This document shows positions 13,384 through 15,625 of a stretch of 21,851 nt of DNA, piece by piece. Where the stretch lies: positions 1-21,851 of the IMG/VR virus record IMGVR_UViG_3300013005_002249; one strand, written 5' to 3'. A model generated the notes under the pieces. That model did no database searches and was not told the origin of the DNA. It saw nothing but the letters and a program-made list of their open reading frames with translations. This stretch comes from a virus. Made by a program: the position numbers and the translations under genes. The first letter of the stretch is position 1. The number at the start of each line of letters is the position of its first letter.

Positions 13384-13521
13384 GGTGCTACTGTAAAGAC
13401 ATAACAGAATAAGAAATGCCGCCTAGAGATCGGAACCCCTAGACGGCGTGGATACCAACAATAAGGCTGTTGGCATCATTACTAAGTGTAGTGTGCCAAC
13501 CTAATTTAGGAGGCACATTTA
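13384..13521 (+). promoter_or_regulatory. Structured 5' leader with mutually exclusive hairpins (riboswitch- or attenuator-like)
   Basis: A 138-nt gap in a packed operon. Stem A: GCCGCCTAG (13418-13426) with CTAGACGGC (13439-13447), one mismatch. Stem B: CCAACA (13455-13460) with TGTTGG (13468-13473). Stem C: GTTGGCA (13469-13475) with TGCCAAC (13494-13500). Stem D: TGTGCC (13492-13497) with GGCACA (13512-13517), plus inner CCTA/TAGG. Stem C shares bases with both B and D, so B+D and C are alternatives. Stem D buries the AGGAGG site (13508-13513) of the next gene, so C would be the translating form. A short frame at 13416-13442 (MPPRDRNP) overlaps stem A. I recognise no known riboswitch class. 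A promoter upstream was not clear. Confidence 0.6.
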
Positions 13522-13719
13522 GTGTTTAACTGGACAAATAAATCATTGGCAGAGATTCTGCCTTACTACGCCAACAATATCTTTATGGCTGAGATGGACT
13601 ACAAAGCCTACGGACTCGATGCCGGTGACTGGGCGATGCTCGTCAAGGAAGCGTTCGAGTCAAAAGTAATCTCACCGACTGTGATGATGGTCATGCTCGA
13701 CAGGGCTAGTGTCCAATGA
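13522..13719 (+). CDS. Small hypothetical protein, first gene of the replication operon
   Basis: A 65-residue protein starting at GTG with a near-perfect AGGAGG site 8 nt upstream, the strongest such site in the early region, and one that the leader hairpin can hide. The sequence (MFNWTNKSLAEILPYYANNIFMAEMDYKAYGLD followed by a helix ending in ASVQ) looks helical and slightly acidic, with no motif I recognise. Its stop overlaps the replisome organizer start as ATGA, so the leader would control both. It may be a small partner of the replication proteins; function unknown. Confidence 0.75.
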   Translation: MFNWTNKSLAEILPYYANNIFMAEMDYKAYGLDAGDWAMLVKEAFESKVISPTVMMVMLDRASVQ

Positions 13720-14378
13720 GCATCGAAGCTGTGTCACTCGTTCTAAACCAATCCAAAGCAACTGGCAGGGCAAAGCTAGTGCTGCTCGGAATTGCTAATC
13801 ATCTTGGAGATCAAGGTGCTTGGCCTTCGATAAGCACATTAGCCAGGTATGCCAATGCCTCAGAGCGTTCGGTCAAGCGTGACATTCAGGAACTTGTAGA
13901 GCTAGGTGAGTTGAGAGTCGAGCTACAAAACGCACCCACTAGAGGTCAATACAAGACGAATCTTTACTGGCTCACAATCAAGTCAGGGGTGACAGATTCG
14001 ACATCAGGGGTGACAGATTGGGTAAGCAGGGGTGACAGCTCAGGTAAATCAGGGGTGACACCTGTTGGCACGCAAAACATAATATTAACCATCAAAGAAC
14101 CATCAAAGAAACAGGCTGATGATGAGTTTGAAAAGTTCTGGAATCTTTACCCCAAAAAGGTAGCCAAAGGTGATGCACTTAAAGCCTGGAACAAAGCAAT
14201 CAAAAGCAAAACCGCCGATGAGTTATTGAAGCTGACTAAGGCATACGCTGAGGGAAAGTTGCCAGAGCTAAAATACATTCCCTACCCAGCCTCTTGGCTA
14301 AACAAGGGACTCTATGAGAGTGTTGAAGTCGCTGAAGCAAAACCCTTGCCTAAGCTATTCATCGGGAGAGTGAAATGA
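13716..14378 (+). CDS. Replisome organizer / replication initiator with winged-helix N-terminus
   Basis: A 220-residue protein. Residues about 1-85 are a winged helix-turn-helix (KLVLLGIANHLGDQGAWPSI, then TLARYANASERSVKRDIQEL, then GELRVEL), as in lambda O and other phage initiators. Residues about 88-118 form a low-complexity linker with SGVT repeats encoded by four DNA iterons. The C-terminal domain (about 136-205) has FEKFWNLYPKKVAKGDALKAWNKAI and PYPASWLNKGLYE, typical of phage replication proteins that load the helicase. The next gene is a DnaB-like helicase, overlapping by 4 bp (ATGA). The layout, with DNA-binding domain, iterons in the linker and helicase-contact domain, closely parallels lambda O. 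Confidence 0.85.
   Translation: MSIEAVSLVLNQSKATGRAKLVLLGIANHLGDQGAWPSISTLARYANASERSVKRDIQELVELGELRVELQNAPTRGQYKTNLYWLTIKSGVTDSTSGVTDWVSRGDSSGKSGVTPVGTQNIILTIKEPSKKQADDEFEKFWNLYPKKVAKGDALKAWNKAIKSKTADELLKLTKAYAEGKLPELKYIPYPASWLNKGLYESVEVAEAKPLPKLFIGRVK
13983..14060 (+). repeat. Four iterons (CAGGGGTGACA) of a putative replication origin
   Basis: The 11-mer occurs exactly at 13984-13994, 14005-14015, 14027-14037 and 14050-14060. Start-to-start spacings are 21, 22 and 23 bp, about two helical turns. Copies 1, 2 and 4 carry T before the motif; copy 3 has G. Copies 1, 2 and 4 read SGVT, but copy 3 lies in another reading frame and reads SRGDS, so the DNA rather than the peptide is what repeats. 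Confidence 0.85.
14066..14112 (+). other. Putative DNA unwinding element with 11-bp tandem repeat
   Basis: Directly after the iterons lies an AT-rich stretch (AAAACATAATATTAACC) followed by two perfect tandem copies of CCATCAAAGAA at 14089-14099 and 14100-14110. Eleven is not a multiple of three, so the repeat is not a peptide repeat. Iterons followed by an AT-rich repeat block is the standard layout of phage and plasmid origins. The location is within the initiator gene. Confidence 0.65.
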
Positions 14379-15625
14379 CACAGTTCGAGCAGTCGGTAAT
14401 CGGATCGGTCTTGCTGACCAACGGCAAGGCACTTGAGGAACTGACACTCGCACCCAGCGACTTTGATGACATACAGAATGAGCGAATCTACAAAACCATT
14501 CTGGAGATGAAAGCTAATCGCCAGCCAATAGATGTGATGACAGTCGGTGCAGCTCTACCAAAGCTATCGAGCTACCTTCACGATGTAGTCACAGCGACCC
14601 CAACTGCTGCCTCTGTCAAGTTCTATGCCAGCAAGGTAATTGAGGAAGCCACAAGGCGCAGACTAGCTGTTGCCGGCACGATGATTCACAGCAAGGCTCA
14701 GCATGAGGACTTAGCCACAGTCTTTGACACAGCTAAAAAAGAGATTGACAACCTCATAGATCGTAACTCGGCAGTAAAGCCCAGCTATGTTGCCGATGAG
14801 TTAATCCCTTACCTTGATGAGATAGACAAGCCAAAGCATTACCCTGAAAGCCCTTGGCCTTTACTCAACGACATCATCGCAGGATTCCGACCAGGTGCTT
14901 TATACATAATCGGTGCAAGACCTGGTGTTGGTAAGACAATCGTTGGCTTGCAGATTGCTTGGGAACTATCCAAGACTGGCCCTGTATCTTTTCACAGCCT
15001 TGAGATGGGCAAGAGTGAACTTTACAATCGCATAATCAGCATGGAAGCTGAGGTTTACATCGGCAGTATCGAAAAGGGAAACCTCAAAGAGTGGGAGTGG
15101 GACAGAATTGCTAAAGTTAGGCAAGACATTCAGACTCACCAGCTCGCCATCCATGACAAGTCAGGTCAAAACCTAATGCAGATACGAGCCTTGGCAAACA
15201 GCGTTAAGGGTAACAACGGACTTCAAGCCATCGTTGTTGACTATCTCGGTTTGATTCAAGACACCGAGAAGGGTCGAAAGCGTTACGAGATGATTACCGA
15301 CATCTCAATCGGACTCAAGAACCTAGCTAGGGATTTGAATGTGCCAGTCATCGCACTAGCCCAGCTCAACCGAGGCCCTGAGCAGCGCAAAGACTCCGAG
15401 CCTGACATGGCAGACCTTAGAGATTCAGGTGGTATCGAGCAGGATGCCGATGCTGTCCTGTTGTTACATCGAACTAGAACTGAAGAAGATAAATTGGAAT
15501 GGCAAAAAAGCCAGATGGTAATAAAGGTAGCTAAGAACCGACATGGTGGACTCGGAGAAGCCCACCTAAAGTTTGAGGGTCACCTTGCTAGAGTCACACA
15601 GCCAGCAGGAAATCAAAAAGGCTAA
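14375..15625 (+). CDS. dnaB-like: Replicative DNA helicase, DnaB-like
   Basis: A 416-residue hexameric helicase. The N-terminal domain (about 1-105) has FEQSVIGSVLL and the DFDDIQNERIYKTILEM segment of DnaB N-domains. The RecA-like C-terminal domain has Walker A GARPGVGKT (180-188), HSLEMGKSEL after it, Walker B in IVVDYLGLIQ, LAQLNRGPE, and RDSGGIEQDADAVLLLHR near the end. It unwinds DNA ahead of the fork and would be loaded by the initiator upstream, with which it overlaps by 4 bp. At 416 residues it is a little shorter than bacterial DnaB (about 470). The window contains no primase or polymerase gene, so host enzymes or genes elsewhere in the phage must supply those. Confidence 0.95.
   Translation: MTQFEQSVIGSVLLTNGKALEELTLAPSDFDDIQNERIYKTILEMKANRQPIDVMTVGAALPKLSSYLHDVVTATPTAASVKFYASKVIEEATRRRLAVAGTMIHSKAQHEDLATVFDTAKKEIDNLIDRNSAVKPSYVADELIPYLDEIDKPKHYPESPWPLLNDIIAGFRPGALYIIGARPGVGKTIVGLQIAWELSKTGPVSFHSLEMGKSELYNRIISMEAEVYIGSIEKGNLKEWEWDRIAKVRQDIQTHQLAIHDKSGQNLMQIRALANSVKGNNGLQAIVVDYLGLIQDTEKGRKRYEMITDISIGLKNLARDLNVPVIALAQLNRGPEQRKDSEPDMADLRDSGGIEQDADAVLLLHRTRTEEDKLEWQKSQMVIKVAKNRHGGLGEAHLKFEGHLARVTQPAGNQKG

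Follow-up and report, generated by a model that had tools for sequence, protein, structure and literature searches.

Four copies of a short direct repeat lie in the middle of a predicted replication initiator gene in the phage DNA studied here (21,851 nucleotides of IMG/VR record IMGVR_UViG_3300013005_002249, hereafter the window), which raises the question of whether this gene carries its own origin of replication, as an initial annotation had proposed. We consider it very likely that it does, with iterons followed by an unwinding element that contains conserved AACC repeats, and with initiator-driven opening and helicase recruitment at this site. The features that make up the proposed origin and its surroundings are listed in Table 1.

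Table 1. Features of the proposed origin, its initiator gene, and the downstream helicase gene; positions count from the first nucleotide of the window.
Feature	Position	Strand	Evidence or remark
Replication initiator gene, 220 aa	13716..14378	+	PF13730 (HTH_36) E 2.7e-10; phrog_270/8540 replication initiation; AlphaFold2
Winged-helix DNA-binding domain, residues 1-86, proposed iteron binder	13716..13973	+	HTH_36 at residues 17-64; AlphaFold2
Disordered-linker codons holding the putative origin, residues 90-134	13983..14117	+	pLDDT < 50; synonymous invariance
Iteron 1, CAGGGGTGACA	13984..13994	+	Exact match
Iteron 2, CAGGGGTGACA	14005..14015	+	Exact match
Iteron 3, CAGGGGTGACA, other reading frame	14027..14037	+	Exact match; frame +1 in all close homologues
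Iteron 4, CAGGGGTGACA	14050..14060	+	Exact match
Spacer, nearly invariant	14061..14078	+	Zero or near-zero synonymous variation
AT-rich stretch, proposed DNA unwinding element	14074..14113	+	75% AT over 40-mer
AACC repeat unit 1, AACCATCAAAG	14087..14097	+	Codons 125-130 nearly invariant
AACC repeat unit 2, AACCATCAAAG	14098..14108	+	Codons 125-130 nearly invariant
Helical C-terminal domain, residues 133-208, proposed helicase-side module	14112..14339	+	AlphaFold2; phrog_270, 9327 primosomal protein match
DnaB-like replicative helicase	14375..15625	+	PF03796 E 2.6e-73; PF00772

The protein has the features of the HTH_36 initiator family, namely a winged-helix N-terminal domain together with a match to PHROG 270/8540/1032, and the window likewise has the iterons and AACC array within the linker codons. 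In the AlphaFold2 model, which was read at the domain level only (mean pLDDT 65, pTM 0.40), blocks 1–7 of the winged helix had pLDDT values of 74–87, with strands at residues 66–71 and 81–86. A sequence search of solved structures with the initiator gave no match, and a fold search returned weak winged-helix matches only, none at E ≤ 0.001. The initiator and DnaB genes share an ATGA overlap. Promoter and terminator scans gave matches near the chance number. Elsewhere in the window, a strong 13-pair hairpin (13418–13447), terminator-like on the minus strand, lies in the gap between an HNH gene and the replication operon; a WhiB-family regulator (PF02467; 10584–10853, minus strand) points to an actinobacterial host; and a cytidylyltransferase-like gene (PF01467; 631–1053) stands beside a glycosyltransferase-like ORF (35–634), adjoining structural genes.

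An exact-match search bore out the four copies of CAGGGGTGACA given in the initial annotation, with spacings of 21, 22, and 23 bp, and found no fifth exact copy elsewhere in the whole 21.9-kb window. When up to two mismatches are allowed, the window contains 17 matches (6.5 expected), a number reached in none of 100 shuffles, and 5000 synonymous re-draws of the initiator gene yielded no 11-mer in four copies. No inverted repeats were present in 13500–14500; the iterons are asymmetric 11-mer direct repeats, and they are helically phased and adjoin an AT-rich element, as is characteristic of iteron-type origins. Copies 1, 2, and 4 read as SGVT, and all three use GGG even though it is otherwise a rare glycine codon here (8/165 in sampled genes). 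Copy 3 is indeed shifted by one base to read as SRGDS, as had been noted, and its frame is the same in close homologues.

The spacer that joins iteron 4 to the AT-rich part has the sequence CCTGTTGGCACGCAAAAC, with almost no synonymous-site change. Within it, TGGCACGC (14066–14073) matches TGTCACCC at 6/8 positions, and a clear TGTCACCC/TGCACCC stands at the spacer position in many relatives. Given this resemblance, TGGCACGC is plausibly an inverted half-iteron in a degenerate copy, and the spacer as a whole may combine such a degenerate inverted iteron with something further.

We collected 80 related loci from viral contigs, which are metagenomic rather than from isolates, and used 28 non-redundant homologues for a test of synonymous variation. 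Codons 90–121 had a mean synonymous heterozygosity of 0.014 (n = 28), compared to 0.378 elsewhere in the gene (n = 121; p = 1.5e-13), and codons 122–131, which hold the AT-rich repeat, had 0.085 (p = 9e-4). Synonymous change was absent over a run of 20 codons at the longest, and of 6 codons at the next longest. In about 55 homologues, the four iterons are those of the window, their spacing is again 21/22/23, and copy 3 stands in the shifted frame. Here and below, genes within a set share descent, as do the sets among themselves in part, so that counts are less than fully independent. Because synonymous sites of the origin stretch barely vary among the 28 homologues, the earlier claim that selection acts on the DNA is strongly supported: close homologues show no codon drift, and rather than keeping the SGVT peptide without the DNA motif, which had been named as the contrary case, they keep the codons unchanged. 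The conservation is not accounted for by RNA or single-strand structure (z-scores of 0.82 and −0.22).

The AT content of the proposed unwinding element is reached by 0.07% of the 40-mers in the window. The AT-rich tract of lambda ori has an extreme purine strand bias; here, about 26 of the 40 nucleotides are purines (hand count), a bias that is present but not extreme. The window has two AACC units only, and their tandem repeat of AACCATCAAAG is the CCATCAAAGAA of the initial annotation in another register. Both the 11-bp tandem repeat and the AT-rich stretch are real, but a description as just AT-rich DNA does not hold, as the repeat is a widely conserved motif.

Among relatives, the number of iterons ranges from three to five, so that the expected persistence of iteron number applies to the close clade, with its four copies, but not beyond it. 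Where iterons differ, all or nearly all copies change together. Locus L071 has four copies of GGGGTGTCA, all altered together; L058–L069 have GAGGTGACA in most of five copies; and Kuleana-type Arthrobacter phages have five copies of GGGGTGCAC, spaced 30/22/22/22 and running through all three frames. Recognition-helix residues ~49–60 vary alongside the iterons in L058–L069, L071, and L085–L093 (SERSVKRDI, SESSVQRDL, SPRSVQRDI, SPRSVQNKL), a co-variation that is a possible specificity code.

Loci L072–L080 resemble the window in their winged helix, iterons (mostly three), and next invariant segment; their C-terminal domain differs from that encoded in the window (compared over 14112–15625). Two long loci were examined, L074 and L076; in both, the DnaB position is taken by a 121-aa gene (L074:6626-6991), and beyond it the downstream genes, the first of which is homologous, are as in the window. 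A gene in L072 similar to the 121-aa gene matches a helicase-loader family only marginally (E 0.0096). We read L072–L080 as the outcome of a cassette exchange whose joint lies directly behind the origin. This fits a modular arrangement in which one half, the domain together with the origin, recognizes DNA, and the other, on the helicase side, can be exchanged. The pairing of halves is not strict, as L101 and L071 break it; L071 shares the C-terminal domain of the window, yet the window DnaB is unmatched in its 11.8 kb.

Counterparts of AACCATCAAAG occur at the same place in other phages: GAACCGTCCTT in three to four copies (Arthrobacter phages), AACCATCCATTAACCATCC (a Curtobacterium phage), and AACCAGTCAAAG, with a 12-bp unit (ST64B). 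In many HTH_36 initiators from phages of Actinobacteria and Proteobacteria, AACCRTC with a period of ~11 bp directly follows the iterons, and the iterons that precede these arrays are of many kinds. The bases flanking AACC are constrained, mostly G before and G/A then T after, and over 51 clusters GC drops by 14 points at the array, a local minimum. Our search of open-access literature turned up no account of the AACC repeat. It is not needed by every in-initiator origin, since it is absent from lambda and from TP901-1 rep.

Viral contigs were scanned twice without protein information. A scan for GGGGTG arrays returned mostly initiator genes with AACC after the iterons. The second pattern, AACCRTC-N4-AACCRTC-N4-AACCRTC, which itself fixes the period, was found in 119 viral stretches; 88 of these are in winged-helix initiator genes, all on the sense strand with none antisense, and inspection by eye shows several of the other 31 to be truncated initiator genes. 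The reversed-pattern control gave 31 stretches, 0/31 in a detected winged-helix initiator gene, although one control match (L338) looks by eye like an AACC-type array in a truncated initiator. When genome contigs were searched, the AACC pattern hit mostly unrelated tandem repeats, with 24/119 in winged-helix initiator genes. Some control matches are 11-bp arrays that lie outside long ORFs, among them TAGCTACCAAT and GTAACTGCCAA (L335, L349, L362, L359; L332, L337, L339, L345), which are a different repeat family.

For a test free of any assumed period, genes were chosen by the winged-helix protein alone, with a narrower alignment because the broad one was too diverse. AACC pairs in the resulting clusters were spaced 11 bp apart in 20 cases, compared to 3.3 in synonymous shuffles; the neighboring spacings gave 12 vs. 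3.1 (12 bp) and 9 vs. 2.8 (10 bp). Runs of at least two AACC were present in 18 of 19 winged-helix gene clusters (expected 7.5), formed by single linkage and hence coarse, and in 17 of 20 such genes in a further set (expected 4.4). Where only the C-terminal domain is shared, 1 of 12 initiators has such a run (expected 0.7), and we therefore reject a role for AACC in the function of that domain.

Other N-terminal domains also come with tandem repeats in their linker codons (L447, MR15; L443, Beakin; L451, MooMoo; L444, Banquo; L446, Yvonnetastic). These consist of AACC at exactly 7 bp, GAACAGAG or GAACAGGG at 8 bp, or CCCGA at 5 bp, and are possibly other types of unwinding element. Loci L224, L241, L313, L317, and L326 have CAACCATCAAG-type 11-bp arrays in initiator-like genes that lack any GC-rich iteron block of their own; here the AACC array itself may be the iteron array.

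Lambda and RK2 are precedents for a mechanism in which an initiator on iterons distorts the DNA, a neighboring element opens, the initiator holds the opened strand, and the helicase is loaded (PMC5043065, PMC7466680, PMC4081077). By analogy with lambda and RK2, on which our account of binding, melting, strand recognition, and helicase loading is modeled, the winged-helix domain would bind the four asymmetric iterons, which are spaced at about two helical turns; binding is probably cooperative and would distort the DNA, and the AT-rich stretch beside the iterons would then open. The AACCRTC repeats, which recur once per helical turn along the coding strand, would act as the conserved unwinding element. 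After opening, the initiator, or else a conserved replisome partner, would probably make strand-specific contact with them, so that the helicase would enter on a defined strand. Recruitment of the phage DnaB encoded just downstream would fall to the C-terminal domain. The array would then be an analogue of unwinding-element repeats that are bound by initiators as single strand. GC skew had no minimum at the locus, which says little in a partial linear record. We rate as roughly an even call the broader proposal that AACCRTC, with its ~11-bp period, is a so far undescribed unwinding element that is conserved widely, across several bacterial phyla, in the HTH_36 initiators of phages, a phage counterpart of the DnaA-trio that stays constant while iterons diversify and is read strand-specifically after melting.

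A different reader of the array is conceivable, if rather unlikely: the origin would be real, but a conserved host factor, and not the initiator on single strand, would bind AACC as duplex. The one-turn phasing suits a duplex binder, and a host factor would agree with a motif that is constant while iterons vary, in phages whose hosts belong to several phyla. However, the array follows the winged-helix domain and not the C-terminal domain or the host, non-O-like actinophage initiators that have the C-terminal domain alone are without it, and AACC is unlike the DnaA-trio or TTATT motifs described for DnaA. We think it improbable that the iterons are mainly an operator through which the initiator, or a repressor, regulates transcription of the replication operon from inside the gene while the real origin lies elsewhere. 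Winged-helix proteins are often regulators, in-gene direct repeats could form a roadblock, and one of the sigma-70-like matches, which occur in about the number expected by chance, overlaps iteron 4; an operator leaves unexplained both the constant AT-rich AACC array directly after many iteron types and its restriction to replication initiator genes, and the layout is that of experimentally proven in-initiator origins (lambda, SPP1, pSK41). Finally, clade members do share a conserved linker peptide, but the notion that SGVT and EPS/NRP-type peptides are kept for protein interaction, with the DNA repeats following from them, is scarcely credible given a copy 3 that encodes SRGDS, Arthrobacter copies in all three frames, invariant synonymous sites, a linker predicted to be disordered, and an out-of-frame 11-bp period far above synonymous shuffles.

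Our preferred reading, an origin inside the initiator gene with AACC repeats in its unwinding element, matters because detailed knowledge of phage origin melting comes from very few systems. A constant motif behind varied iterons offers a sequence handle for locating origins in many prophages, and it predicts which strand is held open, a prediction testable by synonymous recoding. The phage clade of the window is a clean case for this, owing to the near-absolute synonymous constraint on the motifs.

The comparison with lambda made in the initial annotation is strongly supported as regards layout: both have the origin in mid-initiator gene, four iterons, an adjoining AT-rich unwinding region, and a helicase function downstream (PMC7466680, PMC5043065). 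It does not extend to the lambda O family or to palindromic iterons. Lambda O matches only PF04492 (Phage_rep_O), whereas the window protein matches only HTH_36 above cut-off; the two show no similarity by BLASTP (E 0.31) and are linked only remotely, via PHROGs 391 and 678. The iterons of lambda are imperfect palindromes, in contrast to the asymmetric direct repeats of the window, lambda is without the AACC array, and it has a P-type helicase loader downstream where the window has DnaB itself.

By description, oriL/gp38 of SPP1 is also alike, with direct repeats and an AT-rich unwinding element inside the initiator gene, accompanied by a phage loader and a DnaB-type helicase (PMC6316719). In pSK41, one of the staphylococcal RepA_N plasmids, a winged-helix N-terminal domain similarly binds four Rep boxes in mid-rep, the origin DNA encodes the linker, and chimeric rep genes of this type swap the domain plus the origin (PMC5703833). 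RepA_N is a different family from the window protein, and its initiator structures 4pql/4pt7 are weak, non-significant fold matches (E 0.035 or worse). The origin of RK2 lies outside its rep gene, unlike that of the window. RK2 (TrfA, DUE 13-mers) nonetheless has helix-phased asymmetric direct repeats adjoining an AT-rich element, as in the window, and the element's own repeats are bound as single strand (PMC4081077).

Kuleana/Decurro-type Arthrobacter phages have homologous HTH_36-type initiators that carry iterons and AACC repeats in their linker codons, although the iterons are of GGGGTGCAC or palindromic types. In the stretches examined, these genes are annotated as HTH or replication initiation proteins only, with no origin feature. 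For mycobacteriophage RepA, the origin was guessed by the authors to lie in or beside the gene, with repeats unseen (PMC7157519). Origins inside initiator genes are known from lambda, SPP1, and pSK41, and it is the unwinding motif that appears to be new: unwinding-element repeats are reported to differ between replicons (PMC10797057), whereas AACCRTC is common to many unrelated iteron types.
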